Shown piece after piece: positions 1-64,000 of a DNA stretch of 64,000 nt. Each line of letters begins with the position of its first letter. The first letter of the stretch is position 1. The stretch spans positions 36,554,361 through 36,618,360 of the forward strand of contig CM055106.1 of assembly GCA_029204225.1 (NCBI GenBank), in the 5' to 3' direction. The stretch comes from Diphasiastrum complanatum. Taxonomy: Eukaryota; Streptophyta; Lycopodiopsida; Lycopodiales; Lycopodiaceae. Under the pieces are notes generated by a model, which searched no databases, had not been told where the DNA came from, and was given only the letters and a program-made list of their open reading frames with translations. The position numbers were made by a program, and so were the translations under genes.

Positions 1-699
1 ACCACCCTTGCTCTTTGAAGATGAAAAGTGCACATCCGAGTGTACGAGTCCAATGGATGTGTAGTCTTAATAGATGACTTTGAAAAAGGCTTCTTATGAG
101 ACTTAGATATGGCACAAGCCTCACATGGCTGGAAGTTCTTGGAGATAAGATTAGGCAAGCCAATAGCTTTGGCTTTCTTGACCATGAACACCATAGAACT
201 ATAGTTAGGATGCCCCAACCTTCTATGCCAAAGTTCCTCCAAAGAAATATGAGAAGCAAAAGCACCATCACAAGAGTTAGCATACTCTTTGGGATCAAGC
301 TTGTGGATTCCACCATATCTAGACCCAAATGCAAGGATCTCATCATGCTTCTTGATTGTACATGTATCAACATTGAAATTCACATCTAGTCCACTATCAA
401 ACAATTGCCCAACACTAATAAGATTTTCTATTAACTTAGGAACAAAAAGTACTTTAGACAGAGAAAGAACTTTTGATGAAGAAAGCTTTAAGGGAATGGT
501 CCCTATGCCTTCAATAGCACACTCATGATCATTTGCTATGTAGATGGACTTCTTGGCTCCTTCATAAGGTGACATGGATGAAAAAGAATGCTTGGAGCTA
601 CACATATGTGAGGAAGCTCCACTGTCGATGTACCACGAACCATCCTTCTTGAAGGGTGATGAAGAAAAACTCGAGACCATAAGAGATCTCTCTCCATCA
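1..699 (-). pseudogene. Copia element A: protease, pre-integrase and start of integrase (degraded, runs off left edge)
   Basis: Read on the minus strand, this continues the gag frame. The Ty1/copia aspartic protease signature W-Y-I-D-S-G-A-S-S-H-M-C lies at about 600-640. The GAG-pre-integrase region follows, with L-W-H-R-R-L-G-H-P near 204-236 and the C-E-A-C half of the integrase zinc motif near 114-128. A frameshift near position 45 puts the integrase start (L-V-H-S-D-V) in a different frame. The rest of pol lies beyond the left edge. In this superfamily the polyprotein supplies processing and integration functions inside a cytoplasmic virus-like particle. The frameshift here and a stop in gag make this copy inactive. 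Its gag, leader, PBS and LTR follow in order at higher coordinates. Confidence 0.9.
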
Positions 700-1580
700 C
701 TTGCATGGGCATCTTCCTTCTCTTCTTTAGAAATGTTGGCTTGCTTGAATTGACTCTTCTTCTTGAAGCAATTGGTGGCATAATGTCCCTTCTTGCCACA
801 AAAGAAACACTTGATGTTTTTCTTCTTCTTCTTGGATGTGGAAGCTTGAGAGGACTCATTATCTTCTCCTTTCTCCTTGGAAATAAGATTGTTCTTGCTT
901 GAAGAGGGTTGGTGTTGATTCTTACTTCTTGTCTTGTGCTTGTCTTTGGTAAAGAGAGCTTTACCATCAATGTTGAGAGACAGTCTCTCCATTTTCAAGA
1001 GTTTATACTCTTGTCTTGATTCTTCAGAAATAAGCACACTTTGGAGTGCTTCCAGACTTGGTAGCTCCTCCTTAATGGCATAACTCTGAACAAGGTTTTC
1101 ATATTCCTCCTTTAACCCATTAAGTATGAGTTGAACAAGTTCATTTTGGTTGATGGAGTCTCCTATGCATGACAATTCTCTATGGAGGTCTTTAACTCTC
1201 AGTACATAAGCTGAAGCACTTTCATCACTTCTTTGTACACTTTGAAAATTTTGGTTTCTTAGTGTTAGAAGTCTAGAAGTATTCTTTGCCTCATAGATGG
1301 ACTTGAGAGTATCCCAAGCATCTTTGGCATTAGTATAAGCACCAATTTCTCTTAAGATGACATTTGAGACATTCATCTTAATATAATGCAGAGCCATCTT
1401 AGCTCTCTTTTTGTACTTTGGAATTTCTTGAGAAATTTGTGGTTATTCTTCAATTCCAAGTACAATATCCATCACATCTTGTAGAATTAGGACAGATTCC
1501 ATCCTAACCTTCCAAATTGAGTAATTGGAGGTTGACAGTCTTTCACTTGCTTCTAATAGAAAGACACCCATTGAAGTCAT
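700..1580 (-). pseudogene. Copia element A: gag (UBN2-type) with CCHC zinc knuckle, broken by a stop
   Basis: The likely start is the Met codon near 1580. It is followed by the N-S/T-x-Y-x-x-W-K-V-R-M motif typical of copia Gag N-termini (S-T-S-N-Y-S-I-W-K-V-R-M). An in-frame TAA at 1443-1445 interrupts the reading after I-E-E. Beyond it the same frame continues through the UBN2-like helical region (A-K-D-A-W-D-T-L near 1320) and a Lys-rich stretch to the nucleocapsid knuckle C-F-F-C-G-K-K-G-H-Y-A-T-N-C (CX2CX4HX4C) at about 768-809. Gag would form the particle and bind genomic RNA. One stop codon in an otherwise readable frame suggests moderate age. Confidence 0.88.
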
Positions 1581-2324
1581 AAAGAATGATGGAAATAAAA
1601 AAAGATGGATGAAAAAATTGCTTATCTTCTCACTATAGGAACCAATCAAGGGCAAAAAAACAAATTTTATGTAAGCAAAGCAAAAAAACTGTGAAATAGA
1701 TCTCACTAGCTTGACAATCTCTTTAAAACAAGATTTGAATCATCAAAAAAGATGAAGTACGACAAAAGTTATGGTTTTCTGAATTTCACACGTGTGAAAT
1801 ACTCCAAAAATGTCAAATTGACTCAAATACAATCTATTTGTATGAAACAATTTGCCTAGAACCTATAAATTTTGTCTAAATCACATATAGATGAGATTGG
1901 TCAACTTCTGGATGATTTTTGTGATCATTCAAGCAATAAATGACACATACTCATGATTTGCCACAGGTCTAGGCACCCTACTTACTACTCTTCAAAAGCT
2001 TATAACTTTTGATTGGCTTATCCAACTATCATGATTCAAACTGCATCAGATTCTACTCATTTCTGGCTTTCTAGTGGGCTAATTTGCATGAAATTTGGAT
2101 GTATGGTGAGAGAGAACCACCAAACTGAAAATGGGTGGATTTCACACGTGCCAGCACCTAAAATTCCATACAGTACCTGAATTGGACCATTCAAAGTGGT
2201 TTGAAGCTCTAAATCACCAGAAAACTGCAAACTAGCTAGAAAGTAGAATCTAGACAATTCCTAGCTTGAAATCTGATCAAATTTGCAAACTTTTTGATTA
2301 GATTTGCTTGTAGATCTTAGGTAT
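1581..2324 (-). other. Copia element A: 5' leader between PBS and gag
   Basis: About 740 bp without a convincing coding frame lies between the PBS and gag of element A. It contains the 18-bp perfect palindrome ATTTCACACGTGTGAAAT at 1783-1800 and a half-palindrome TTCACACGTG at 2141-2150. Because it lies between PBS and gag it should be part of the transcribed 5' untranslated RNA. Confidence 0.7.
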
Positions 2325-2336
2325 GCTCTGATACCA
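2325..2336 (-). other. Primer-binding site of copia element A (initiator Met-tRNA type)
   Basis: On the minus strand the sequence is TGGTATCAGAGC, the standard plant copia PBS complementary to the 3' end of initiator methionine tRNA. It starts directly after the CA end of the adjoining LTR, as expected for the start site of minus-strand cDNA synthesis. Confidence 0.92.
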
Positions 2337-2922
2337 TGTTGAATTCACACGTGTGGGATGCCCTACACATGTACTTTTGATCTCCTAAGCCCAGTAATAC
2401 CATAAAGATCAGACTAGCATTGATTGACAATAGGAAAGCTGATCATACAAGAAATATTATTGTGATACAAGCAAGATCTGTCAACAAAACATGAAACTAA
2501 GCATAATAAATGTCTCAGCTCGGCTAGAGAGAGAATTTGAAAGTACAAAACTCGAGTAGAGAGAGAGGGCACAAAGAGCTTAGTCTCCAGATTTGCATTA
2601 CACACAAATTTCATCATCTTGTCAATGAGAGTACATCACATATATATAGATCCATGAACTCTCCTCCTACTTTGAGTTGAATTGGAGTTATGAATCCACC
2701 TCTCAAGCTATCTAGACTTATCCAAGCCACCTCACTATGTCTAATTGTGCCACCTAGTCTTTTCATGCATTAAATGTGGCATGCAAAGTACAAATGGCAA
2801 TTCCTATGGTAGCTCGAGTTTCTACTTCTACCTACCTTGAATATTTTATTCTAAGATGGGTCTTTACTAAGCCAAAAGAGCTCAATTCATCTTTGGCATT
2901 TTTAGGACTCCTACTTACAACA
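2337..2922 (-). mobile_element. Copia element A: 5' LTR (586 bp)
   Basis: In element sense it starts TGTTGTAAG and ends GAATTCAACA, giving the TGTTG...CAACA short inverted ends, with the PBS right after it. A TATA-like tract (TATATATATG on the minus strand, around 2637-2647) is a candidate promoter. The palindromic CACACGTGTG motif lies at 2346-2355, on the U5 side, so it should be present in the 5' end of the transcript. The partner LTR is outside the window. Confidence 0.85.
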
Positions 2923-2952
2923 TTAGATGGATTTTTCCAATATTTCGACAAA

Positions 2953-4376
2953 CCCAGCCAGGTGAACACAAAAAGGATTTTCCAATCCAATTTGCAAGCC
3001 GACAGCTCAGTGATACCGTAATGAATTATTCAACCACAGAGCGGGAAGCACTGGCAATGATTTATGCGGTTAAGAAATTTTGACATTACCTGATGGCCAC
3101 ACATTTTGCTTTTTATTCGGACCATCAACCCTTGCTCTATCTCGTTAATAAAACTTGCAACACCGGGAGAATCACCAAATGGCTACTTCTGTTGTTGGAA
3201 TTTGATTTTTGGATAGTAGTTCGCAGGGAAAACAACATTACATGGCAAATCATGTATCACGAATCAAGGAGAAGGAGATTGCAACCCAACCTGACGATGA
3301 GCTGGTAGATGCTGCCTTATTTTACGTGGACACAGTACCAGAATGGGCTACCGACATTGTTGAATATCTAATGCGGGGCCAACCAGACAAATCACTACCA
3401 AAGGCGGAACAGCGGAAATTGATCTTGAAGGCTAGACCTTATCAGCTGATTGCCGACTAGTTATACCGAAGAGGACCAGACGGAATTCTTCAACGGTGTA
3501 TTCTTCCTCATGAGGCCACCCACATCATTTCGCTTTCACATCAAGGCATGGGTGGGGGCCATTTTGCATCCGACATTACAGTTCGCAAGATCCTGCAATC
3601 AGGATGTTAATGGCCAACGATTCATAAGGATACGGAGGAATACTTAAAAAAGTGCGATGTGTGCCAAAGGTCAAGAAGGCCAACGAGATTGAATTTTGAC
3701 CTACTACACCCGGTCTTAGCCCAAGCACCATTCAAAAAGTGGGATTGGATTACATCGGTTCAATTCACCCTACGACAAGGAGTTTCCAAGCTCAATACAT
3801 AATCGTAGCCACAGACTACCTCACCAAATGGGTCGAAGCCAAGACAGTAAGAGTAGCTGATGCTAGGACCACTGCCAAGTTCCTTTATGAAAATATCATT
3901 GTATGCTTCGGATGCCCGGTAAAGCTAGTCAGCGATCACGGAAGCCATTTCATCAATGAGACCATCAAGGTCCTGTTGGAGGAATTCTTCGTGATCCACA
4001 AAACTAGTACGCCTTATTATCCTCATGGTAATGGGCAAGCAGAATCATCCAATAAGATCCTATGTAGCGTGCTCACGAAAACAGTTGAAGCTAGTAGATC
4101 AGATTGGGAACATAAGTTGCATGTTGCATCGTGGGTATTCAGGACATCAGATAAAGGAAGCACTGATCAAATACCCTTTCAATTGGTATATGGTCAGGGT
4201 GCTGTGATGCCAGTAGAGTTTTTAGATTCTTCAGTAAGGATTGCCACCACGCAACGTCTTAGTGAGTCCAAATCTCTACAGCTACATCCTGAAGCTCTAC
4301 ATAAACTCTGTGAAACACGCTTACTAGCTATGCATGCACTGGCAACTGAAAAGGAAAGACGCAAAGCATGGTATTG
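2953..4376 (+). pseudogene. Gypsy G1: RNase H C-terminal part plus integrase
   Basis: The fragment opens with T-Q-P-G-E-H-K-K-D-F-P-I and the RNase H segment D-H-Q-P-L-L-Y-L-V-N-K, followed by M-A-N-H-V-S-R-I (usually M-A-D-H-x-S-R). The integrase follows: an HHCC zinc finger ending C-D-V-C-Q-R-S near 3655-3675, then the core with D in G-L-D-Y-I-G (about 3748), D in S-D-H-G-S-H-F (about 3934) and E in G-Q-A-E-S (about 4042). The second D and the E are separated by exactly 35 residues, so the DD35E triad is present. Stops (for example K-K-F-stop-H-Y-L, with TGA where the copy at 37.1 kb has CGA) and a frameshift near 3740 disable it. It overlaps G3 by about 450 bp at high similarity, so both are copies of one Ty3/gypsy family. 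Confidence 0.9.
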
Positions 4377-4377
4377 C

Positions 4378-4650
4378 TATCTAGTATCATTGTACTTGTT
4401 GTTTCAGGTGCAGGCCGTACAGTGGACAGTACTCCACACGTGTGAAGCCGCTCTCACTAAAAAAATGATGTGTTGATCCATTGCTCTTGCTTAAATCCAA
4501 GTGTAGTGAATCTAGATCAAGATCTAATGTGTAGAACTTGATAGATTCATTGATTAAGCAACCAATAACTCTCTATGATTGTAAAGTACAATCATTATTG
4601 TCCTAAAAACTGTAAAATTTATCATTTCCAATAAGAACTTCTAATTTGAA
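4378..4650 (+). mobile_element. Fragment of a copia LTR (R/U5-like)
   Basis: The gypsy reading ends abruptly here. What follows resembles the end of the copia Z LTR: a TATCATTGTACTT-like stretch, a TTTCAGG segment, then CAGTACT and the palindrome CACACGTGTG at 4435-4444, followed by a GATCTAA...GTGTAGA-type stretch as in 24540-24580. No PBS or clean LTR border was found, so this is a fragment. Confidence 0.5.
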
Positions 4651-4719
4651 TCACAGTCATATTTTTTCTCCTGGAGTTCTTCACTTACATCATACAGCTC
4701 CATTCCTCCATAAAGGACT

Positions 4720-5128
4720 TCACTTTGATCTCAACCGGAGCACTTCTGTTTGATCTCGACCGGAGCACTTCTATTTGATCTCGACCGGAGCACTTCACTC
4801 AAATCTTGACCGAAGCACTTTTGTTCGATCTCGACCAGAGCACTTCACTTAGATCTCGACCGGAACACTTTTGTCCGATCTCAACTGGAGCACTTCACTC
4901 AGATCTCAACCGGATCACTTCTGTCTGATATCGACCAAAGCACTTCACTTAGATCTCAACTGGAGCACTTCTATCCGATCTCGACCAGAGCACTTCACTC
5001 AAATCTCGACCGAAGCACTTCTGTCTGATCTCAACCGAAGCCATCCAGTCACTTCTTGACCGAAGCCATCCAATCAGATCTCAACCGGAGCATTCCATTT
5101 AGATCTCGACTGAGCGCATCCCTTCAGA
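4720..5128 (+). repeat. 25-bp minisatellite array 1
   Basis: Imperfect tandem copies of a 25-bp unit close to GATCTCGACCGGAGCACTTC plus five variable bases. The CCGGAG core recurs at 4735, 4760 and 4785 and onward at steps of 25 or close to it for about 16 units. Because 25 is not a multiple of 3, translated frames cycle every 75 bp, giving motifs such as S-D-L-N-W-S-T-S-L-R-S. The array runs straight into a gag-like coiled-coil reading frame. The same unit, in the same orientation relative to its own element, forms array 2 at 11165-11425. Confidence 0.9.
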
Positions 5129-6804
5129 TCTCAACCAAGCACATTGGCCAAAGAAAAAGAAAAAGAGATAGATGAAATAAGATCCGTGATGGCTGGGTAG
5201 AAGATCACATTGGAAGAGGTCCAGCAACAACTAAAGCACCAGATGGCCCAGATCGACCAAGCACAAGATGGATCGTCGGGTGCAATGACAATTGGTGCCT
5301 CTCTGGTTAAGCCTGAGGACATACAATTCTAGGCCCCACAGGCCACACCCATACAGATGGAGAAATATGTGCAGTTGATCCAGGAACGAGAAGCCGAGAA
5401 GAAAAATTTTGAGGATGTTGTGGCCAGAAAAAAGATCATCCTTGAGTCCCAGAAATAGCTTGAAGAAATGAAAAAGGCCCTACAGCAAGTCTTGGACAAG
5501 GTGAACCAATTATGGGACACGGTGTGCAAGGCCCAAGCATGTGCTCCTACAAAGAAACCGGATGGAGATGATGGAGCAGACAATAAGGATGGACAAATCT
5601 GACTATCAGATGGTAGCTCAGGATCGGGTGGCCAGAGAGCCAAAGTTGCTTCCGAAGTTTTTTCTCTTTCCCCTTCCACTTTCAACCCCTCATCTTATTC
5701 TGCTTTTAATTTTTCTGAAACATTCATTTCTACTTACCATGTCTCCTCACTTTTCTCTTCTCCACTACCTCCTAGTAGAGTATTGGGCCCATCTAAAGGT
5801 CCAGCTGACAAATACAAAGCCCGACGGGACAAGTTCCTACAACAGCTTCGCTCCCCCGGTGCGGTGTACAATTTGTTAAATCCACCTCCTCCTAACCCTG
5901 TCGTCCCTGCTCCAGATCACTCCATCTCTGACCCTCCGAAAACTAACACTGATACCAAGGGTGATGACGACTTTCTGGCAGATCCACCGAAAACTAGAAG
6001 ATTCTCGCCCAGGCAAGACACGAGTGTAACTGAGCCATCTACGAGTGAGCGGACTAAGGAGAAGGATATAGACACTAAGGCCTTGGACGACTACCTAGCA
6101 AGGCCACCACAACGATGTAGGGCAGCTTCTCCTACCAGGACAAGGGGTAAGATGGCCGATACCAAAGAGCAACCGCAACTTGAATGGCAAAACAAAGTTC
6201 TAAGAGATAAGAGATGGCTGCAAGAGTATCTGAGGGCACCGACATGGAAACGAATTGATCCTTTTTACATGCCACTTAAATGAAAAAATCCATGGCCTGT
6301 AGATAAACCACAGGTCGAATTGGTAAACTGGCCAGTGATTCCAAGAATTTCAGACAAAATCTCTCTGGATAATCTTAGGCTACAATTATTGGATTTCGAG
6401 CACAAATACAAGACTAATGCCGATCTGTGCGTGCAAGCAAGCGCTAAATATTGTTGATCAATGGCCTTTCTAATGCAGTAAGAGTATTTTTGGGATTGTG
6501 GCTTGGATCCAATAAGGATCAATCCCAACGTAGCCCTCCAGTCAGAGGAAGACCATGAGATGATGGTCTGGCTCTACTACAGAGTGGCCTTCATGTCATC
6601 AGGCATGTCACTATGATAGAAGACTGGCAGGAAATGGGCTTCATAGAAAAGATACGGGATTACCTAGGGCTGTTATCCTACAGAAGTAAGTTATGCTTCC
6701 AAGTCTTTGAGGCCCTAGGACGAAAATTGAGTTCGAGGAAGCGGGTTGCACGACAACAAGGCAAGCAGGACTCGCAAGAGGTTCTCAAGAGAGCTGGAAT
6801 GTAG
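5129..6804 (+). pseudogene. Unrecognised gag-like coiled-coil ORF of a presumed gypsy-type element (several stops)
   Basis: A leaky frame follows the 25-bp array. It begins with a charged Glu/Lys/Gln-rich coiled-coil-like stretch (for example L-E-E-V-Q-Q-Q-L near 5210, and repeated E-K/K-K segments to 5500). A Ser-rich linker comes next, then an open segment at 5783-6283 that is Pro/Asp-rich with repeated D-D-x-x-A-x-P-P units. The frame runs on with stops to a basic C-terminal part (R-K-L-S-S-R-K-R-V-A-R-Q-Q at about 6720-6760). No zinc knuckle, protease or RT motif is visible. The position beside a repeat array and gypsy fragments, and the similar character of 13948-14830, suggest a retrotransposon-encoded structural protein. 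That is inference; the family was not recognised. Confidence 0.45.
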
Positions 6805-16300: not shown

Positions 16301-16328
16301 GGGTTGACAATGTACACTATGTACAGTT

Positions 16329-17933
16329 GGCAAAGGACAGCAAGTTGAGGGTATCTCATCCACTTCTTATGCTTTATCTAGTTTTGAAGAACCGTCTAAT
16401 GTTGAAGATGCATTGAACTCCAAAGAATGGTATAAAGCTATGTTGGATGAGTATGATGCCTTGATTGAGAATGAAACTTGGTTGCTTGTTGAGAGATCTC
16501 AAAGGAATGTAATAGGATGCAAGTGGGTCTTCAAGCTTAAGTTGAATGCAAATGGGAGTGTTAACAAACATAAAGCAAGATTAGTTGCAAAAGGTTATGC
16601 TCAAGAGAGAGGGATAGACTATGAGGAAACTTTTGCACCCGTGGCCAAGATGGTCACAATAAGGCTAATCATTGCACTTGCATCACATTTTGGATGGATT
16701 CTATGTCAAATGGATGTCTCTAATGCTTTCTTGAATGGTTTTTTGGAAGAGGATATCTTTATGGAGCAGCCACAAGGGTTCATCAAGCATGGAATGGAGA
16801 ACAAAGTATGCCATCTCCAAAGAAGCATCTATGGCTTGAAGCAAGCCTCGAGATCTTGGAATTCAAGACTACATTGCTATCTTATTTCACTTTCTTTTGT
16901 TCAAAGTGAATATGATCCCACTATTTACATTAAGTTTGATGATGTTGGTATTGTACTTTTACTCATTTATGTAGATGACATCATCATTAGTGGAAATAGT
17001 GTTGATGGTATTGAAAAAATCAAGATAGATCTATCCTTAGAGTTCAAGATGGTAGATCTAGGGTGTCTTCACTTCATCTTACGCATAGAAGTACTTAGAG
17101 GGTCTGATTTTATTTTTATAAGTCAAGTAAACTATGCTCAAAGTCTTTTGAAGAAGTTTAAGATGGAAGTATGCAAAAGTGTTGACACACCAATGGAGCA
17201 AGATGTAAAAGTGCCAAATGAAGATGATGAAAGATCCTTCATGGACATCACTTTGTTTAGGCAACTTATAGGTTCCTTAATGTGGATCACTATAACTAGA
17301 CCAAATATTAGCTTTAGTGTATGTAGGTTGAGCCAATCCATGCAAAAGCCATTGAATATCCATTGGAAAAAGGCTAAGAGGATTCTAAGATACATCTCGG
17401 GTACATTGGATTTTGGGATTCTATATAGAGGAGATGTGATTAACCTTCATGCATTTAGTGATTCAGATTTTGCAGGGGACAAGAGGGATAGGAAATCAAC
17501 AAGTGCCTATTCAACTTTCATAGGAGAAGGTGTGGTTTCGTGGCTTTCAAAAAAACAAGAAACTATATCTCTATCTTCAACCGAGGCCGAGTACAAAGCT
17601 TTGACAACCACTACAAAGGAGGTACTTTGGATCAAGAGATTATTGGTGGAACTAAAGATCATGGATTCAGAGGAGGCACCAATCATCGACAATGACAATA
17701 TATCAGCCCAACACCTTGCATCTAACCCAATCTTCCATGCAAGATCTAAGCACATTGAGATATGCCATCACTTTGTGAGAGAAATGGTGCAAGCCAAGGA
17801 GATTGCTTTGGAGCATGTTCCAAGCAATGAATGTGTAGCTGATATACTTACTAAACCACTTCAAAAGACACCTTTTATGAAGTTCAGATCATCACTTGGA
17901 GTGATTAGTAAAGCAATGATTGAACCAAGCTAG
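16329..17933 (+). pseudogene. Copia X: reverse transcriptase and RNase H (open, but gag, protease and integrase missing)
   Basis: A single open frame covers the copia RT core: K-A-R-L-V-A-K-G-Y, F-A-P-V-A-K-M, D-V-S-N-A-F-L-N-G and the catalytic Y-V-D-D at 16968-16979. RNase H follows with D-S-D-F-A-G-D, S-L-S-S-T-E-A-E-Y and A-D-I-L-T-K-P-L. RT copies the RNA into cDNA and RNase H removes the RNA strand, inside the particle. The key acidic residues are intact. The frame enters from 16329 without a start codon, and gag, protease and integrase are absent, so this is a 5'-truncated element. PPT and 3' LTR follow directly. Confidence 0.93.
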
Positions 17934-24665: not shown

Positions 24666-24677
24666 TGGTATCAGAGC
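24666..24677 (+). other. Primer-binding site of copia Z
   Basis: TGGTATCAGAGC directly after the LTR end CCACA; complementary to initiator Met-tRNA. Confidence 0.92.
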
Positions 24678-35884: not shown

Positions 35885-36628
35885 ATTTTAGCGGATTTGT
35901 GTGAATCTGAAGGCGCTAAATGCAGTCACCAAAAAGGATCATTTTTCTTTGCCATTTATGAAAAGTGTCCACGACAGAGTAGTCGGTGCCAAAGCCTACA
36001 GTTTTTTAGATGGCTTTAGCGGCTACAACCAGGTGAAGATAGCCCCCCAGGACCAGCACAAGACAGCATTTGCCACAGAATGGAAAACCTATGCCTATAA
36101 AGTGATGCCATTCGGACTTTGCAATCCCCCAAGCATCTTCCAGTGAGTCATGCAAGCGGCATTCAAAGATTATCTGCAAAAAAAATTGAAAATTTTTTTG
36201 GACGATCTTTGCGTGCATGGACCAGATTCAGAACACTTATCCAACTTGGAGAAGGTGTTACAAAAATGTCGCGACTACCAAATCTCCCTGAATCCAAAAA
36301 AATGTCAATTCTGGGTGACACATGGCCAGATTCTTGGCCATATAGTGTCAAGACACGGGATCGCCACAGATCTATCAAAGATCAGGATCATTATTGATCT
36401 ACCACCACCGGGGACGATCCGTGAAGTCTACATCTTCATGGGTCACACTAACTATTATAGGATCTTCATTCTTGATTTTGTAGAGTTAGCCCGTCCAATT
36501 TACAAACTCACGACGGACTCACATTGGAACAAGTAAGCCCTAAAGGCTTTCCAGAAGCTTAAGGATGCATTGGTTTCAGCACCAATCTTACGCCCACCTA
36601 ATTGGTCCATTGAGTTTCACTTGCATAC
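35885..36628 (+). pseudogene. Gypsy G3: reverse transcriptase
   Basis: The frame reads V-N-L-K-A-L-N, S-F-L-D-G-F-S-G-Y-N-Q, F-A-T-E-W and V-M-P-F-G-L-C-N-P-P. A TGA (usual Arg in F-Q-R-V-M) interrupts it near 36145. It resumes with the catalytic I-F-L-D-D at about 36192-36206, N-P-K-K-C-Q-F-W and G-H-T-N-Y-Y-R. A TAA follows near 36535. Only about 30 bp separate the PBS from RT, so gag and protease are deleted. The RNase H sequence is split at 36628 by the TRIM and resumes at 37013. Confidence 0.9.
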
Positions 36629-36781
36629 TGTGAAAAGTTTTTACACTTGGTGTGTGTGGTCGGGCTAGGGATTGAACCTAGGACCTCCCCCATTCCGGTG
36701 GGGTGCTCTACCACTGAGCTACCCATCCATTTGTGTTCCAAGAGTGTTGTGCAAGGGCTATAGCCTTGACACTTTCTAACA
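36629..36781 (-). mobile_element. TRIM element: 3' LTR (153 bp) with tRNA-like module
   Basis: Runs TGTGAAAAG...TTCTAACA on the plus strand (element sense is minus). It is the same length as the copy at 36855-37007, with two transitions between them. The flanking target duplication CATAC is at 36624-36628. Confidence 0.95.
36658..36728 (-). ncRNA. tRNA-like sequence inside the TRIM 3' LTR
   Basis: On the minus strand 71 nt fit a tRNA cloverleaf: acceptor GGATGGG against CCCGACC (one A-A mismatch and one T-G wobble), D arm GCTC-AGTGGTA-GAGC, an imperfect anticodon arm CCCCA...GGGGG, and T arm CTAGG-TTCAATC-CCTAG. The A box TAGCTCAGTGGT and B box GGTTCAATCC are both near consensus. A 7-nt anticodon loop would be CCGGAAT, but that fold leaves the last stem pair mismatched, so a working decoding tRNA is doubtful. 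A pol III promoter role is inference. Confidence 0.8.
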
Positions 36782-36789
36782 CTCCCCCT
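36782..36789 (-). other. TRIM polypurine tract
   Basis: AGGGGGAG on the minus strand, next to the 3' LTR. Confidence 0.85.
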
Positions 36790-36842
36790 CAAGGCATAGC
36801 CCTTTTTAGCTATTGCCCGCCTAGGCCACGCCCACAACCATG

Positions 36843-36854
36843 GCTCTGATACCA
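36843..36854 (-). other. TRIM primer-binding site
   Basis: TGGTATCAGAGC on the minus strand directly after the 5' LTR, the same initiator Met-tRNA type as the copia elements in the window. A copia-type enzyme is therefore the likely helper. Confidence 0.92.
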
Positions 36855-37007
36855 TGTGAAAAGTTTTTACACTTGGTGTGTGTGGTCGGGCTAGGGATTG
36901 AACCTAGGACCTCCCCCATTCCAGTGGGGTGCTCTACCACTGAGCTACCCGTCCATTTGTGTTCCAAGAGTGTTGTGCAAGGGCTATAGCCTTGACACTT
37001 TCTAACA
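36855..37007 (-). mobile_element. TRIM element: 5' LTR (153 bp)
   Basis: Second LTR copy, followed by the CATAC duplication at 37008-37012. It carries the same tRNA-like module at 36884-36954. Here the acceptor 5' strand is GGACGGG, pairing better with CCCGACC than in the other LTR. Confidence 0.95.
36884..36954 (-). ncRNA. tRNA-like sequence inside the TRIM 5' LTR
   Basis: Same fold as 36658-36728, with two base changes: one improves an acceptor pair and one lies in the anticodon loop (CTGGAAT). In element sense the module lies near the middle of the LTR, so a pol III transcript starting here could include the PBS and internal region if it read through. Confidence 0.8.
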
Positions 37008-37012
37008 CATAC

Positions 37013-40310: not shown

Positions 40311-40517
40311 TTTTAACGTTTTCTTTCGCATTGAGAAATGGACTATTCGCACGGGACTTCTGATGCTTGAGACTAATTATTCAATGATTTGTTTGCACTC
40401 TAGCATTTAATGAATTGTTGAAACTCATGAGGTAAAAAGCAATGCTCTGCTCACCCATTCTTAGTTTAACACATTAAAGGGACCCCTAGGCTTAAGCAGG
40501 TCCATAAACTATAAAAT

Positions 40518-40649
40518 TGTTAGAAATCCATAAACCATAATATGGATGGACAGACTAGGATTCGAACCCAAGACCTCCCTCATATCGGATAGGATGCTCT
40601 ACCACTTAGCTATCCGCCCTATTTGATAGTTCTCGCTAGATGTCCAACA
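40518..40649 (-). mobile_element. Solo LTR of a TRIM-like element with tRNA-like module (132 bp)
   Basis: Runs TGTTAGAAATCC...ATGTCCAACA and is flanked by perfect AAAAT duplications (40513-40517 and 40650-40654). No internal region is present. On the minus strand its middle is tRNA-like, as in the TRIM at 36629-37007. The two share GGTAGAGCA, GGGAGGTC and the T-arm region but differ elsewhere, so they are related elements, not recent copies. A solo LTR is the expected product of LTR-LTR recombination. Confidence 0.88.
40548..40619 (-). ncRNA. tRNA-like sequence inside the solo LTR
   Basis: Minus-strand 72 nt. The acceptor GGGCGGA pairs with TCTGTCC over all seven positions (two G-T). The D arm has one mismatch, the T arm is TTGGGTTCGAATCCTAG-like, the A box is TAGCTAAGTGGT and the B box GGTTCGAATCC is perfect. 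The anticodon stem is weak, which argues against a working decoding tRNA. Confidence 0.78.
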
Positions 40650-41699
40650 AAAATCTCAAGGACAATAAACTGGTATGTACTGGCAAACAGCTTGCGTGCA
40701 ACAAACATGGTTTGGATTTAAAGGATGAGAATGCTACAATACCACAATCTCCCAAGCAACAAGTAATGGAACAAAAAGTCCAAAACAAGTCTAGTCTCAG
40801 CGTTGAAGCTTTCATTGTCTACTAATTAATTGTAAGATTGATGCAAGCTTTGACAGGAAATGACCCTGATAATTGCAAAGTAACTTGAAAAGAAGGCTTT
40901 TCATTTGCATGATGGATTTGTGCACCTTTTTTTGATAGAGAAAAAATGTCTGACCTTCCTAAAAGATGTTGATTTTTTGGAGATGCATTCCAATGAATAA
41001 CATGGGCACATCATAGATTGCAGATAGCTCAAAAACCAGATAAAACTAAAATAACATTCCAGATGTGTGATTTACAGTAGTGTCGACATATTGCTCTTCA
41101 AGATATTAATTAGTAAGTGATCATATTATAATATTCGTAAGTGTTCATCTCAAAAACTAAAGTTTGACAATGTCAATTACCATCAGCTATTTGTCTCAAA
41201 CTCACATGTGTGCATATCTAACACATTGTATGAGTCAAGCCATATATGCGCAACTGGCACGCTCAATGAACTAGACCATGCATCTAACTTTCGCTGAGGC
41301 AGCAAAAGGAACACCATAATTCATCGAATTTCAACCACCTTAGACAACGAAAAAACATTTGCAAACCTCGATCGTAACTGTGAACTCGGTAGAGAGCTTT
41401 GTGCAACAAAAGGGAACAATCTTTTGGCTCATGAATAACCTTTTCAAAAGTATTCCACAGTAAGGCAAACTCAGTTTCATCAAGGATTCGTTTCAAATGA
41501 AGCAACTTCCATGTGAAACAGTCCATGCTTCACTTAACCTGCATATACATCTAAGTATGGAGCAAACAAAAAGCAGATCAGCAACTGGGATAATTATATG
41601 TTTCAAGTAGTCTTGTATATATGTAATTGATCAGCACCAAAAAATTCTCGGATACAAAACAAAATGTTCGATTCCAAGTGAACTAGGGTACCAAGCCAC

Positions 41700-60841: not shown

Positions 60842-63678
60842 AACTTTGAATGTGTGTGTGTGTGTGTGTGTGTGTGTGTCTCGTCAATTGAGTGTGTCAA
60901 TAATCAGCTGCTTATATTGTCTAACGTCTAGACAATAAAACAACACATGTTTTTCCTTTCACTAAAGGCCAGGAATTAAATCAAGCAAAAAAAAAACCCT
61001 AAAAAACGTTTCGTCGTTTCTTTCCCGACAAAGCCGATTCGTTCTCGTTTCAAACGCATTGCGAAAAGGCTTTTTGAAAAGGTCCATGAAACATTGCAAC
61101 AAATCTTAGCAGCTTATTTTTTGTGATAAAACTACTCGATCTGAATCATTTGAATCTTGTTCAAATCAAATGGAGTCTCAATTCATGTTTTCTAGTGAAC
61201 GTTCAGAAGATAAGTGCTAAGACACCTTAAAAAATTTCCTAAGAAAACCCGAAAAAAAAAGGCTTCCAAAACGGTGCATTCTAAAATTTCCAAATGAGCG
61301 TTTTGGAACATGATCGAAACTCTACATTCCGGAGCACAATGCATCTATGATTAGCGTACTTTTCAGATCAACCAAGAGACTTAAATTAACAAGAGCGCCA
61401 AGAGATTTAGCTTGAACAAAGGCATTCACTAAAACCAACAAATGCTAGCATTAGACTAAGTGCACTCACTTTTAGCAAAAAAGACACATCAAATGTTCCA
61501 TACCAAGAAAATGTGGGAGCTCTAATGTATGCACAGATTGAGAGCAAAACTGACATTGCTTTAGCAGTACATAATGTAGCAAAATATTGCAATAACTCAC
61601 AACGAGTTCACTAGGAGACCGTTAAGAGAATCTTCAAGGTCCTAAAAGGTACATCCGCACGAACCCTATGTTTCAATGGGAGCAACAAGCTCACCAACGA
61701 GCTCGTTGTCTTTTGTTGACTATGCTGGAGATCCAAATGAAACAAAACCAAAAGGGGGTCTGTTTTCTTGATCAACAACAAAGCAATTGCCTGGAGTAGC
61801 GACTCCAAAATGCACAACGTGATCTACCATAGAAGCAAAGTACGGTGAAGCAACCAAAGAAGTCATCTAGCTAGAGCAAGTTTTAGCAAAGGCACTTGGC
61901 AACAAGAACTTTTGGATACTTTCGTACAGACTGGGACTTGTATGGTTAAAGAATCGTTGAAAGATAAATGGTAAGGATGCTTCTTGAGTGGGAGTGTTAA
62001 GAATATACAATAAGCATCATTAACACAACTGAACGTAGCAACTCCTTCCTTGGGGCAGTTGCTATCATCCCTATGAACTGATGATAGGCCTAAGTGCATA
62101 AACAACATTTGCAACAATGCATTAGATAGCCGTAATGAATGACCAAGAGTCTAGTGACAAGTAGCCTGTTGACACTACTTCATAAAAGGGTAACAAAGGG
62201 TCGCTACCAAGTACCAACTGATCTAAGAAGTTTGATGTTAGTTAGTTGTTTACCACAAGTAACAAGTCTATTACAAGCTACTACGAGTTGCCTTACGAGC
62301 TCCTACCAATTCTTACAAGCTCCTACAAGTTCCATTACATACACCAAGCACAAAATTTTAGCAATCTAGTAAAGCAGCAAATTATGTCAAAAGGTTTGAA
62401 TTAAGATTTGACATGACTATTGCTGATCATCTTCACTAAAAGAACTCTATCCAAGAGCTTATGTAGTGGCTAAAATGTGAGCCCTTTTCCAATCGTGTGG
62501 CTCAAGAGAGGGCACCTTTTCTACTTTCTAACGTGGCCACGCATCACAAAAACAAAAAGGCCAGACCAGAAATACAAGAATGGCGAACATGAAGATCAAG
62601 GCTCCTTTACAAAACAAGTAGTATCTTCCAGCCATAAAACTGCAACATTTAACACACAGCAACCAACAATATAATAACATGTTAAAAATTTGAAAGCAAG
62701 GAACCAAACCTGAGACCCGTGCAGTTCATCGATTGCCCTCTTAGCCTCAGATGGATCGCCATATCGAACAAACGCGTAACCTTTGTTCTTCCCAGAAGCA
62801 TAACGAGTAAGTCTTACTTCCATCACCTTTCCAATCTTCCCAAATATACTTCTCAAGTCATGCTTTGTAACATCCCTCTGAAGGTTTCCAATAAAGACCT
62901 CCACCCGTTTAAGTTTCCTCCGCTGAGATACAGGTTGTGAATCTTGTATTTCCCGTAGTGTGCGTTCAGTGTCATTTTCACCATCCCGTATAATCTTGTC
63001 AATCTCTTGTTGAACTTTGTTGTCTTCATCCTCATAATCAACTTCATCCTCATCTTCTACCTCATCCTCAATTTCATCTTCCTCTTCATCTTCTACTTCG
63101 TCCTCTTCCATGTCCTCAACTTCATCTTCTATCTCATCCTCGACCTCATCCTCTACCTCATCTTCAGCTTCTGCTTCATCTTCCTCCTCTTCATCACCAT
63201 CTACACCATCTCCCTCTTTCACATTCTCCTTGGAAATATCACCTTCTGCAGGTTTCTCTTCTGCTGCAACTTCCTGAGCCACCTTAGATCCATCAAACTT
63301 TGCTATTACAACCCCCTGTGCTTCCTGACTACCAATTTCTAATACTTTCACCTGCTCGTCTGGTTCAGATTTTGCAATGCTGGTTTTTGCAGAGCCTTTA
63401 TCCATTTGCAGCTTACTGTCCTCACCAATGTTCCTGGAGGGTTTTCCATTTTCCCCAATGGATGACTTGGTCTCTGTCTTCAACTCACCAGCTTTTGCGT
63501 CAACGTTCACCACTGTTACATCTGCAGAAGGGTGGTTTTGGAGATTTTCGGCATCCTGAACTTGTTCAGATATTGTAATTTTACTTTCCAAATCCTCCTC
63601 TACAGATCCTTTCGTTGGAGTTTTAGCACCTCCTTTCTTCGGAACCGGGGACTTTTTAATCCCCCCACGGGTCTTCAT
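43937..63678 (-). CDS. hnRNP R/Q-type RNA-binding protein, three RRMs (11 coding exons, 839 aa)
   Basis: Spliced model (minus): 63678-62710, 48717-48628, 48374-48135, 47664-47443, 47322-47178, 47044-46907, 45471-45161, 45031-44898, 44669-44584, 44257-44175, 44038-43937. All borders are GT-AG and phases join without a stop, giving 2520 nt. Domains: Lys-rich N-terminus, acidic tract at residues 162-220, RRM1 at about 259-336, RRM2 at about 338-421, RRM3 at about 435-510, then an Arg/Ser-rich region (about 556-700) and a Gly/Ser/Tyr-rich tail. This architecture matches plant hnRNP R/Q-like nuclear RNA-binding proteins, for example Arabidopsis AT2G44710 (809 aa, from memory); LIF2 is a more distant relative. 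It presumably binds nuclear pre-mRNA; targets are unknown. No symbol is given because orthology was not tested. Confidence 0.92.
44175..44257 (-). CDS. hnRNP-type gene, exon 10
   Basis: Completes residue 779 and encodes 780-806, a Ser/Tyr/Gly-rich tail segment with Y-S-A-S-G-Y-T-Y-G. Acceptor TTGTTAG, donor GTCAGA. Confidence 0.85.
44584..44669 (-). CDS. hnRNP-type gene, exon 9
   Basis: Residues 750-778, Gly/Gln/Ala-rich (V-G-Q-Y-A-I-G-Q-G-L-G). Acceptor GCTGCAG, donor GTAAAT, ending in phase 1. Confidence 0.85.
44898..45031 (-). CDS. hnRNP-type gene, exon 8
   Basis: Residues 706-749 plus two bases, with D-D-P-R-Y-V-E-V-P-R-T and Y-A-R-I-P-F-Y-E-I-P. Acceptor TTGCAG, donor GTTTGT. Low complexity drops here, so this linker may be a conserved contact region. 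Confidence 0.86.
45161..45471 (-). CDS. hnRNP-type gene, exon 7 (Arg/Ser/Asp-rich)
   Basis: Residues 602-705, rich in R, S, D and E (R-R-S-L-S-P-R-P-G-S, S-H-R-E-S-K-R-D-R). Such segments are typical of disordered, phosphorylatable parts of splicing and hnRNP factors. Phase 2-in and phase 0-out both fit. Confidence 0.9.
46907..47044 (-). CDS. hnRNP-type gene, exon 6 (RS-like)
   Basis: Residues 556-601, strongly basic (R-R-G-R-S-S-G-R-H-A-R-V-R, R-S-R-S-R-R-E-A-S-R-E-H). Could act as a nuclear-localisation or RNA-contact region (inference). Acceptor TTATAG, donor GTAAAT. Confidence 0.88.
47178..47322 (-). CDS. hnRNP-type gene, exon 5 (end of RRM3 and linker)
   Basis: Residues 508-555: V-K-L-K-V-R-F-S-K-P-V completes the last beta strand of RRM3, and a Gly-containing linker follows. 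The donor used is GAAG|GTGCTT because it alone keeps phase with exon 6; it is the weakest border of the model. Confidence 0.8.
47443..47664 (-). CDS. hnRNP-type gene, exon 4 (RRM3)
   Basis: Residues 434-507. RNP2 is V-Y-V-D-G-M (437-442) and RNP1-like N-D-F-G-F-I-D-Y is at 476-483. The usual aromatic residues are present in RNP1 and RNP2, so RNA binding looks possible. Confidence 0.92.
48135..48374 (-). CDS. hnRNP-type gene, exon 3 (most of RRM2)
   Basis: Residues 354-433. RNP1 is N-R-G-Y-A-F-L-E-F at about 381-389; D-A-M-K-A-F and V-A-F-A-Q-P-L follow. Acceptor TTTGCAG, donor GTCTGA, phase 0 at both ends. Confidence 0.92.
48628..48717 (-). CDS. hnRNP-type gene, exon 2 (end of RRM1, start of RRM2)
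   Basis: Thirty codons, phase 0-0. I-R-G-Q-P-C-R-V-I-P completes RRM1, and L-Y-L-G-N-I (340-345) is RNP2 of RRM2. It lies 14 kb from exon 1. Confidence 0.9.
48718..50699. other. Intron 1, unassigned part
   Basis: No conserved frame. A palindrome-rich stretch of TAGTTAGTA/TACTAACTA words lies at 50190-50245. GTCAGGAGTCGGGACTCAGG-type words at 49650-49670 and 50320-50350 suggest decayed repeats. Confidence 0.4.
50700..50938 (+). pseudogene. LINE copy 1: zinc-binding C-terminal part of ORF2, first half
   Basis: The frame reads L-A-I-E-T-G-R-Y, then C-Q-V-C-x(11)-H-F-I-F-T-C and I-R-D-R-Y-H-C-L-Y-R-D. This CCHC block is the reverse-transcriptase zinc-binding motif at the C-terminus of plant LINE ORF2 proteins. 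The frame is cut at 50938 by copia E and resumes at 55651. The RT and endonuclease are missing, so the copy is strongly 5'-truncated. Confidence 0.8.
50939..51573 (-). mobile_element. Copia E: 3' LTR (635 bp)
   Basis: Runs TGTCGAAAATCG...AAATCCAACA on the plus strand; the element is on the minus strand. The PPT (AAAGGGGAG on minus, 51574-51582) lies just inside. The flank CCTTT (50934-50938) matches CGTTT at 55651-55655 with one mismatch. A second LTR-start-like junction with a PBS copy is embedded at 50998-51010. Confidence 0.92.
51574..52411 (-). pseudogene. Copia E: RNase H
   Basis: The minus-strand frame reads S-L-M-Y-A-M-L-C-T-R-P-D-L-A-Y, G-Y-T-D-A-D-W-A-G-D, V-A-L-S-S-T-E-S-E-Y-I-A-A-T and A-A-D-Y-F-T-K-A-L (usual A-D-I-F). 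Several stops, for example near 51965 and 52145. The PPT follows at 51574-51582. Confidence 0.88.
52412..53653 (-). pseudogene. Copia E: pre-integrase, integrase and a remnant of RT, with internal deletions
   Basis: A 413-codon open frame. It carries L-W-H-F-R-L-G-H-L-N, C-E-S-C-I-I-S-K-H and first D in V-H-S-D-I-C-G-P-M. The second catalytic position reads R-T-Y-G-G-G-E-F where copia integrases have Asp. Directly after S-P-Q-S-N-G-V the frame jumps to W-T-G-S-K-P-S, so about 80 residues including the catalytic Glu are gone. Further on, an acidic linker joins straight to E-Y-K-M-T-D-T-G-P-A-H-Y, the end of RT, with Y-V-D-D absent. The frame stayed open although both enzymes are lost, so the deletions were in frame. 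Confidence 0.9.
53654..53992 (-). pseudogene. Copia E: protease region
   Basis: Minus-strand reading W-Y-L-D-F-G-A-T-Q-H-M-T is the copia protease site with Phe in place of the Ser of D-S-G. A stop follows soon after. V-Q-L-G-D-N-S and L-H-V-P-N-L-T-K-N-A-L-S-V continue into the integrase frame. Confidence 0.82.
53993..54860 (-). pseudogene. Copia E: gag with CCHC knuckle
   Basis: N-terminal gag pieces (near 54740, W-K-F-K-M-K-V) lead to L-R-M-V-D-A-D-S-V-S-S-H-L-N-T-F and, after frame changes, the knuckle C-R-Y-C-K-K-T-G-H-E-I-K-D-C at 54003-54044 followed by a stop. Frameshifts lie near 54300 and 54480. Confidence 0.82.
54863..54874 (-). other. Copia E primer-binding site (one mismatch)
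   Basis: TGGTATTAGAGC on the minus strand, next to the LTR end; the standard site has C at position 7. Confidence 0.85.
54875..55650 (-). mobile_element. Copia E: 5' LTR (776 bp)
   Basis: Aligns with 50939-51573 along its length except for an extra segment of about 150 bp (roughly 55390-55540) present only here. A PBS-like GCTTTGATACCA plus a second LTR-like start lie at 54934-54946, 71 bp inside the border, exactly as in the other LTR. The divergence implies an old insertion. Confidence 0.92.
55651..56310 (+). pseudogene. LINE copy 1: ORF2 C-terminus and 3' end with microsatellite tail
   Basis: Resumes after copia E as F-E-Y-Q-D-P-R-C-V-G-L-L-L-R-E-M and ends with a Pro/Arg/Ala-rich tail at 55958. 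A 3' UTR of about 270 bp contains the hairpin GTGCCCTTGGGCAC and ends ACATTAATATAATT followed by (TTC)n(TC)n at 56231-56310. LINEs usually end in A-rich or simple-repeat tails, so the repeat is taken as the element's tail. Copy 2 ends the same way. Confidence 0.72.
56231..56310. repeat. (TTC)n(TC)n microsatellite, LINE tail
   Basis: About 12 TTC units grading into about 21 TC units. Confidence 0.95.
56311..57019. other. Intron 1, unassigned part
   Basis: No coding support. A near-perfect inverted repeat CCCCCATGCACATGTGCATGGGGG lies near 56511-56534 (cited by position; core GCACATGTGC). A cluster of GGTTCGAA/TTCGAATCGG words is at 56966-57010. Confidence 0.45.
57020..57860 (+). other. Open, Trp-rich repetitive region upstream of a chromodomain gypsy end (function unclear)
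   Basis: Frames stay open for 206 and 96 codons, but they are Trp/Leu/Ala-rich and low in charge, and other frames are open too. A word close to TCCATATTGCTTGG recurs at 57090, 57315 and 57866, so the region is built of diverged internal repeats. The last repeat belongs to the integrase C-terminus of the gypsy element that follows, which suggests duplicated or recombined pol end sequence rather than a membrane protein. Confidence 0.35.
57864..58181 (+). pseudogene. Gypsy chromovirus: integrase C-terminus with chromodomain
   Basis: The frame reads V-F-H-I-A-W-F-L (usual V-F-H-V-S-x-L), L-R-C-F-L-R-R-H-D, a linker and then I-Q-F-S-I-H-W-D-G-R-P-I-E-E-A-T-W-E-P. The last part is the chromodomain pattern V-x-W-x-G-x-P-x-E-x-A-T-W-E found at the integrase C-terminus of chromovirus Ty3/gypsy elements, where it steers integration to certain chromatin. 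The upstream pol is not visible. The frame ends at 58181. Confidence 0.75.
58182..59311. mobile_element. LTR-like DNA (two promoter boxes)
   Basis: Downstream of the chromodomain end lies probable 3' LTR sequence with GCTATAAGTAGG at 58479-58490 and a roughly 31-bp tandem duplication (CTTAAGTCTTGCTTATG...TTTCATAG, 58580-58640). A second LTR-like stretch has AGTATAAATAGGCGCC at 59069-59084. Exact ends and target duplications could not be fixed. Confidence 0.5.
59312..60030 (+). pseudogene. LINE copy 2: ORF2 C-terminus and 3' end with CT tail
   Basis: Starts inside the zinc block (E-E-H-F-I-F-R-C-A-A-Y-Y) and continues Y-E-D-P-R-E-V-A-L-M-L-H-E-M. Stops follow in the Arg/Gln-rich tail. The 3' UTR parallels copy 1: GAGATGTACTTATTTGGTCT, CTTTTGGCATTAAAAGACATTAATAAAG, written here only as ACATTAATAAAG, then (CT)n at 60009-60027. 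Confidence 0.7.
60598..60799. repeat. 101-bp tandem duplication
   Basis: Units start GCAACCTACATGAGCGATGC at 60598 and 60699 and differ at about five positions. Confidence 0.92.
60810..60880. repeat. (GT)n runs separated by TTTGAACTTTGAA
   Basis: GT repeats at 60810-60838 and 60851-60880. The same TTTGAACTTTG spacer precedes the first run, so a GT-plus-spacer unit was duplicated. Confidence 0.92.
61440..61994 (+). pseudogene. Copia remnant: RT end, RNase H and PPT
   Basis: The decayed frame reads N-V-P-Y-Q-E-N-V-G-A-L-M-Y-A, T-D-I-A-L-A-V-H-N-V-A-K-Y, V-K-R-I-F-K-V-L-K-G-T and A-I-A-W-S-S, the copia order P-Y-x-x-A-V-G-S-L-M-Y ... W-x-x-x-K-R-I-L-R-Y-L-K-G-T ... I-S-W-x-S. Stops and shifts are numerous. 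GAGTGGGAG at 61986-61994 is a good PPT. Confidence 0.8.
61995..62360 (+). mobile_element. LTR start of the copia remnant
   Basis: TGTTAAGAATATACA follows the PPT. The 3' border is not clear. A degenerate 12-bp TACAAGCTCCTA repeat lies at 62270-62340. Confidence 0.5.
62710..63678 (-). CDS. hnRNP-type gene, exon 1 (N-terminus, acidic tract, most of RRM1)
   Basis: ATG at 63678-63676 is chosen because the 5' splice acceptor GCAG (63707-63704) lies 25 bp upstream and the upstream in-frame codons read as intron-like hydrophobic sequence. It encodes residues 1-323: M-K-T-R-G-G-I-K-K-S-P, then an acidic tract of about 60 residues (162-220) built of D/E-V-E/D repeats, RNP2 V-F-I-G-N-L (261-266) and RNP1 K-G-Y-A-F-V-R-Y (299-306). 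The donor CAG|GTTTGG ends it in phase 0. Confidence 0.92.
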
Positions 63679-63703
63679 CTCAAAATTCAAAACAACTAAG
63701 GAC
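63679..63703 (-). other. 5' UTR part of exon 1
   Basis: 25 bp between the acceptor GCAG and the ATG. A non-coding first exon and the promoter should lie beyond the right edge. Confidence 0.6.
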
Positions 63704-64000
63704 CTGCAATATTCCCACAATGTTATGACAAAACTGAAATTTACATAATGACTATATATTAAACAAAACCATAATGAAAACATGACGGCAATATTTAAAG
63801 AACCCATAACGATAGTATCATGCCAAAATTTCAGCGTCCAATATGACTACATCAAAAACAAATGGCCAAACTGAATATTGAAAAATCAACATCTCAGAAA
63901 TAAACCGTAATGACAATATTATGGCAAAACTGAAAGTTTCATAATGACTCTATCGGAAATAAAACCTTAAGTGAAAAATTTCCTTGCGGAACTTAAGTGT
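63704..64000 (-). other. 5' UTR intron (partial)
   Basis: AT-rich. A word close to CAATATTATG(G/A)CAAAACTGAAA with CATAATGACT occurs at about 63717-63750 and again at 63916-63950, an imperfect repeat about 200 bp apart. Confidence 0.45.

Follow-up and report, generated by a model that had tools for sequence, protein, structure and literature searches.

The 64-kb stretch of DNA that we analysed (the window) carries on its minus strand a complete TRIM of 379 bp (36629..37007), which has copies elsewhere in the same genome and which we refer to as family A. In each of its two LTRs lies a tRNA-like module in sense orientation. We consider it probable, as one joint reading, that the element is a non-autonomous TRIM of the Helenus type (TRIMp3) with a captured tRNA gene serving as its LTR promoter, and that the module acts as a promoter and not as a decoding tRNA. 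The evidence comes from the architecture of the element, from its copies across the genome and from a second family, family B, which carries a related module in otherwise different LTRs.

Architecture of the window element

The element consists of a 5' LTR (36855..37007, minus strand), an internal domain (36782..36854, minus strand) and a 3' LTR (36629..36781, minus strand), of 153, 73 and 153 bp respectively. The two LTRs are identical at 151 of 153 positions, and the two differences, located at positions 57 (C/T) and 85 (T/C) of the sense LTR, are both CpG/TpG changes. Immediately 3' of the 5' LTR is found the PBS TGGTATCAGAGCCATGG (36838..36854, minus strand), which we take to be of the initiator tRNA-Met type, and the polypurine tract (PPT) GAGGGGGAG (36782..36790, minus strand) abuts the 3' LTR on its upstream side. 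Since the PBS follows an LTR on the minus strand and the PPT precedes the 3' LTR, the sense strand of the element is the minus strand, and the tRNA-like module is therefore in sense. A sequence-only reading of this DNA had proposed a complete TRIM at this place, with 153-bp LTRs, two differences between them, a PBS, a PPT and a CATAC duplication, and we found all of these; the ends TGTGAAAAG/CTAACA that it quoted are also present, but they are written as seen on the plus strand, not on the sense strand.

The target site duplication (TSD) CATAC (36624..36628 and 37008..37012, plus strand) lies inside a Ty3/Gypsy RNase H frame. When the 60-nt flanks were joined with a single copy of CATAC, the Ty3 RNase H reading frame was restored across the insertion site, and the piece of the host Ty3/Gypsy element downstream of the insertion matches RT_RNaseH (E 7e-25).

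An inverted repeat spans the junction of the PPT and the 3' LTR (36753..36804, minus strand; arms 36790-36804 and 36753-36768). As an isolated 65-mer it gives a z of -3.07, and its inverted match was equalled in 13 of 2000 shuffles. Within a long RNA the arms mostly pair with other parts, and we rejected this hairpin as a functional fold.

Elsewhere in the window we observed a tandem array with a 25-bp period (4667-5160), an RRM gene (62599-63846) and, between 14841 and 19668, direct-repeat pieces of 92-95% identity that are separated by about 3.8 and 4.5 kb and enclose a Copia RT frame (16308-17930); these repeats may represent Copia LTRs. The RRM gene has its best match in the clubmoss Diphasiastrum complanatum (E 3.2e-26; the next, from Eucalyptus, has E 7.0e-16), which suggests a Diphasiastrum-like lycophyte as the host, although the identity of 36% is low. 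Neither the Copia RT piece (about 50% identity to its best listed match) nor the Gypsy RNase H piece gave a pointer to the host.

The tRNA-like module and its putative promoter signals

The module was detected by cmscan with the Rfam model RF00005 (gathering score 29) and, in addition, by ARAGORN. In both window LTRs the Rfam tRNA model is matched over its entire length, with the full cloverleaf aligned, at 36883..36954 in the 5' LTR (minus strand, 61.4 bits, E 7.5e-11) and at 36657..36728 in the 3' LTR (minus strand, 54.4 bits, E 6.1e-9). By cmscan the module is 72 nt long, and not 71 nt as previously stated. The presence of a sense-oriented module in each LTR was otherwise correctly recognized, as were the A box TAGCTCAGTGGT (36936..36947, minus strand; 3' LTR copy at 36710-36721) and the B box GGTTCAATCC (36895..36904, minus strand; 3' LTR copy at 36669-36678), both of which are found in the two LTRs. 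Allowing up to 3 mismatches, the A-box 18-mer occurs three times in the 64-kb window, versus a mean of 0.06 in shuffles. This A box contains TAGCT and TGG, and GGTTC is present too; the available part of the Helenus report gives a box A with TRGCY and YGG and a box B with GGTTC (PMC10886601). Two A-box patterns of different spacing had no match.

Around the module, we found a CAA at -5 relative to the start of the tRNA (36957..36959, minus strand), which resembles the plant pol III start motif, a TATA-like stretch at -34 (TATA, 36985-36988, minus strand) and, 21 nt past the tRNA end, a TTTT (36859..36862, minus strand; 3' LTR copy at 36633-36636) that is a candidate weak pol III terminator. 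Besides these two TTTT copies, the 379 nt of the sense strand contain no T4 run. In flowering plants, upstream TATA and CAA and downstream T stretches are pol III features of tRNA genes, each of them occurring in just a fraction of plant tRNA genes according to the available part of that study (PMC11700998); consequently the CAA, the TATA and the T stretch support a pol III promoter but do not prove it. From the boxes and these neighbouring motifs we infer a putative pol III promoter in the module.

The anticodon loop of the module in the window element has 6 nt, and ARAGORN proposes a two-letter anticodon and no isotype, which makes a decoding tRNA unlikely. The module could instead act in the RNA, through mimicry serving packaging, processing or cell-to-cell movement, and not as a promoter. 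Its sense orientation in both LTRs and the full cloverleaf aligned by cmscan would fit such a role, but the fold predicted for a 327-nt transcript does not favour cloverleaves, and RNase P or Z, by cleaving a true tRNA fold, would sever the genome RNA. Folded alone, the tRNA-like RNA does no better than shuffles (z -0.46). We regard an action in the RNA as very improbable, and packaging through tRNA mimicry, which the sequence-only reading had entertained, is left without support.

Copies of family A in the genome

Using the whole element as a query, we searched the source genome (1.74 Gb, 5176 contigs) and obtained 43 matches on scoring the best 40 of 702 first-look candidates. Three of these matches belong to the second part of a tandem copy; 40 loci, including the window copy, were read. 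All 40 have the order LTR-internal-LTR, three of them as tandem LTR-internal-LTR-internal-LTR arrays, and 24 have an exact 5-bp TSD. When the loci were grouped by their flanks we obtained 27 groups, 16 of which have an exact 5-bp TSD. The divergence between the LTRs of a copy is 2.7% on average, with no identical pair among the 40. Genome-wide, junctions of the family A LTR with its PBS were found 257 times with at most 2 mismatches, versus 0 for the reversed control. At the locus L012, a family A TRIM is directly preceded, at its LTR start, by an inverted copy of the initial 19 nt of that TRIM's internal domain (282-300 in sense orientation).

The LTR match covers the tRNA-like module in 83 of 83 LTRs of the 40 loci, always at the same LTR position. 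Most copies have thus kept their tRNA-like part, in agreement with the sequence-only reading, among these best-scoring loci found with the whole element, a sample in which older and module-less copies are under-represented and from which module-less copies may have been missed. The repeated copies with their TSDs, together with the covariance-model match in both window LTRs, likewise bear out that reading. Among the 83 LTRs, the 12-nt A-box string TAGCTCAGTGGT is exact in 61, the B-box motif is present in 78, GGTTC in 81, the T4 tail in 68 and CTATAG in 77.

Since ARAGORN and Rfam both report tRNA-like genes at this place in the window, an ordinary tRNA gene or pseudogene struck by a TRIM by chance, or duplicated in tandem, was also considered. 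The same LTR position of the module in 83 LTRs from 40 loci, with LTR ends, PBS, PPT and TSDs, speaks against it; tandem tRNA genes or chance are contradicted by these multi-locus data, and we give this explanation practically no weight. In the 200 kb around the window there was no further match to Rfam at gathering score, nor any further ARAGORN or LTR match. A pattern scan of viral contigs with the 3' half of the module gave 0 matches, in a collection where records of the source genome are possibly absent.

We then compared, in 60 distinct family A LTRs, the variability of the boxes with that of the rest. The minor-state fraction is 0.0246 in the A and B boxes versus 0.0195 in the other non-CpG columns, and 3850 of 5000 permutations were as low; within family A, the boxes are nominally no better conserved than the remainder of the LTR. 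Because young copies mostly drift after insertion, conservation within family A is a weak test.

The LTR end CTTTTCACA upstream of the PBS core was found at 760 places; the last letter of the pattern used does not allow the continuation of the window element itself. A numerous element thus seems to have the family A LTR end in common. Three of these sites, the ones inspected, continue with CAAGTACAAGG. In the window, a PBS site at 24666 follows TTTTCCACA, which resembles the family A LTR end, and its continuation is like that of the CAAGTACAAGG sites; it is possibly a relative of the family A helper.

A second family with a related module

At 3.5 kb from the window TRIM we observed a solo LTR of another family, family B (40518..40649, minus strand), flanked by an exact TSD AAAAT (40513..40517 and 40650-40654, plus strand). 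It measures 132 bp, against 144 bp for other copies, and contains a tRNA-like module at 40547..40619 (minus strand, RF00005 41.8 bits). As a control, TG..CA with an exact TSD was found in 147 of 2000 shuffles, and a terminal inverted match of at least 6/7 as well in 5 of 2000.

The search for family B gave 40 matches, including the solo LTR, from the best 40 scored of 851 candidates. Twelve short loci were read, of which 11 have two near-complete LTRs and 1 has a 5' LTR that is truncated; a basic unit measures about 404 bp (LTR 144, internal domain 116), and 8 of the 12 have an exact TSD. ARAGORN names tRNA-Thr(GGT) for 22 of the 28 modules in 14 family B loci, so that these, unlike those of family A, are readable in principle as tRNA genes. 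Within the solo LTR there is no TATA-like stretch and no T4, and L074, a family B element, lacks T4 runs altogether; TATA and T4 are consequently not features common to the two families.

The module of the window 5' LTR and that of the family B solo LTR agree at 57 of 74 columns, a score that was reached in 0 of 500 shuffles, and with a complete family B LTR 61 of 74 columns are common. The 5' flanks of the module agree at 32 of 59 columns, and 5 of 1000 shuffles reach this score, which indicates that they are not wholly unrelated; on the other flank the agreement is 15 of 29 columns, reached by 63 of 1000 shuffles. A CAA is located at -5 in one LTR family and at -6 in the other, relative to the module. 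Between families A and B, the module is by far the best conserved part. The sequence-only reading had set the conservation of the A and B boxes against that of the rest of the LTR: the expected difference does not appear within family A but is found for the module between the families.

The score of the A and B modules against each other is 45, whereas the best score of a host tRNA gene is 20 for A and 23 for B, among 20 genes picked from 63 listed matches, a sampled set in which several isotypes are missing. The A-B score being far above those of the host tRNAs, one old tRNA-derived module seems to have been inherited by both families. The 63 matches were those scored from 84,948 loose first-look candidates in the RF00005 search of the source genome, where tRNA-like repeats may be very abundant.

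These comparisons bear on an explanation in which ordinary LTR signals drive transcription of the window TRIM by RNA polymerase II and the tRNA-like stretch is a passenger, for example an old SINE or tRNA insertion, with no current function. The A and B boxes that vary as much as the rest within family A would suit this explanation, pol II could make use of the CTATAG in U3, and a SINE insertion is discussed as an origin in the available part of Kojima's report (PMC10886601). A passenger, however, hardly accounts for a module strongly common to two otherwise different LTR families, with a CAA at nearly the same distance in both. We hold this explanation to be improbable, and a pol III promoter in the module is the reading that we retain.

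Composites of family B and Copia

Two family B matches located 5.2 kb apart on one contig led to the 5.3-kb composite L069 (locus C2:31006825-31013138), in which Copia sequence and the TRIM-B internal domain lie between identical tRNA-bearing LTRs. Its two 144-bp LTR-B copies are 100% identical and flanked by the TSD GATAC. The order is LTR-B, Copia internal region, native Copia LTR (about 453 bp, judged from its start), complete 116-bp TRIM-B internal domain and LTR-B; the interior contains pieces of Copia gag, integrase and reverse transcriptase with broken frames, and both joins are exact at LTR/PBS. With identical terminal LTR-B copies and a TSD of its own, L069 was integrated as a single unit.

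With the first 500 bp of the L069 Copia interior we obtained 40 matches, L069 included, from the best 40 scored of 1220 candidates. Ten further 5' flanks of this Copia type were read: eight show the native LTR end, and in the other two, L085 and L086, LTR-B is found instead, with the join at the LTR/PBS point seen in L069. In L085, TRIM-B internal sequence is found upstream of LTR-B, in an array-like manner, and the 3' side piece of L086 extends only into the native LTR. A junction pattern with at most 2 mismatches gave 60 matches (control 0), 41 with the LTR-B end and 19 with the native end. The 41 LTR-B/Copia junctions are spread over 18 contigs, and a single contig holds 12 of them, grouped in two clusters. 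Our reading extended across the LTR for three of these junctions and covered both ends for L069 alone.

Three other loci were also noted. The family B pair of L070, 7.6 kb apart, was rejected as a composite: one long ORF searched there had no Pfam match, and the pair seems to consist of two separate copies of TRIM-B, in one of which an LTR is truncated. In L080, a native Copia LTR end is fused into the middle of a tRNA-bearing LTR-B, and in L077 the second LTR-B leads into another, different interior that opens with a PBS, TGGTATCAGAGCTCCACTGG.

From position 624 to 5554, native LTR included, L069 contains 54 runs of T4 or longer and 4 of T6 or longer, which makes its interior implausible as a pol III transcript; such composites would either arise anew or use pol II. 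L069 as the autonomous parent of family B is disfavoured for this reason, and also because 8 of the 10 sampled copies of the interior bear another LTR.

The composites suggest a Copia helper and co-packaging for family B; for family A we identified no composite. The TRIM and Copia RNAs would be copied in one particle, with strand transfer between molecules through the common PBS: plus-strand strong-stop DNA of TRIM-B would pair with the PBS end of the Copia minus strand, and reversely, which would give the L069 joins in one round. Judging from the structure of the joins, we infer that such copying is the most economical account of the family B composites. That tRNA-type LTRs repeatedly took over coding Copia elements by such an LTR/PBS swap in a shared particle, which would place Copia gag-pol behind an LTR of pol III type, some composites then moving on as units, is a tentative proposal that we consider doubtful. 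If true, the composites would directly record in the genome that a TRIM shared one particle with its helper, and would indicate a route by which LTR retrotransposons change promoter class.

DNA recombination at short LTR/PBS homology, or nested insertion, could also have produced the composites. Both partners have the homology ACATGGTATCAGAGC in common, where recombination is possible, tandem TRIM arrays are present in the source genome, and the origin of 12 of the junctions from two clusters indicates that duplication contributes. On the other hand, L069 is whole, with the marks of a one-unit integration, its joins are exact at LTR/PBS on both sides, and the junctions are spread over many contigs. 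We see in recombination or nesting a modest chance, rather on the unlikely side; if it were the origin of the composites, the assignment of a helper to family B would be weak.

Discussion

Helenus, or TRIMp3, is a TRIM defined by a tRNA-like sequence in each LTR (Kojima 2024, PMC10886601, as far as the available part goes). The sequence-only reading knew of no described tRNA-type TRIM, a statement overtaken by this publication of the same design; its parallel with Cassandra and its proposal of a tRNA-derived pol III promoter remain the best reading, but the design is not new. We file the window element as a new member of the Helenus type in a probable lycophyte, an assignment made by design, with the published Helenus elements compared by description. 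As in the part of that report available, each LTR has a tRNA-like sequence with A and B boxes kept and the tRNA mostly judged non-functional, a PBS and a PPT lie between short LTRs, the TSD is of 5 bp as in plants and fungi, and the total length of family A falls within the reported 311-1263 bp. The only plant with Helenus in the available part is Selaginella moellendorffii, with an LTR of 120 bp and an internal domain of 85 bp (PMC10886601); here these are 153 and 73 bp in family A, and 144 and 116 bp in family B. In the same part, a Copia helper is proposed for fungi, the one TRIM-Copia pair compared has LTRs that are not similar, pol III transcription is left unproven, and how the dependence of a TRIM on its autonomous element is maintained is given as not known (PMC10886601). 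Unlike that pair, coding Copia elements here bear the tRNA-LTR in the composites.

Cassandra also has a small RNA gene promoter within the LTR of a TRIM, and tandem LTR-internal arrays, and its PBS TGGTATCAGAGC equals the first 12 nt of the window PBS (PMC7215508, available part). The window element is not a Cassandra, since it has a tRNA in place of the 5S rRNA and the 64-kb window contains no match to the 5S family of Rfam. Ajax, a 5S rRNA TRIM of nemerteans, follows the same logic and has a 5-bp TSD, but its promoter is derived from 5S and its host is an animal (PMC10886601, available part). In the available part of a study that surveyed 48 plant genomes, no TRIM other than Cassandra has 5S rRNA sequence, and the word tRNA is absent (PMC4717578). 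Besides Helenus, our literature search by titles and abstract openings found no description of a tRNA-LTR TRIM design in plants. Resemblance extends to tRNA-derived SINEs, which are short non-coding retroelements with a tRNA-type A/B promoter. SINEs lack LTRs, a PBS and a PPT and rely on LINEs; the two LTRs, PBS, PPT and 5-bp TSD of the window element exclude that it is a SINE.

We propose the following cycle for the window element. RNA polymerase III would start near the CAA of the 5' LTR, and would continue past the weak T4 and across the 73 nt of the internal domain into the 3' LTR; the T4 in the 5' LTR should be a hindrance to full-length pol III transcripts. The product would be a short RNA in which the tRNA-like stretch, present at both ends, serves as R. 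Gag, RT and integrase would come in trans from a Copia element, and reverse transcription would be primed at the PBS by a host tRNA, presumably the initiator Met.

Because they can be named as tRNA genes, as 22 of 28 family B modules are named tRNA-Thr, tRNA-bearing LTRs can inflate tRNA gene counts. The LTR/PBS composites are physical evidence of a link between one Copia family and one family of tRNA-LTR TRIMs, and the presence of two tRNA-LTR families in one large, probably lycophyte genome makes the plant branch of Helenus substantial and testable.
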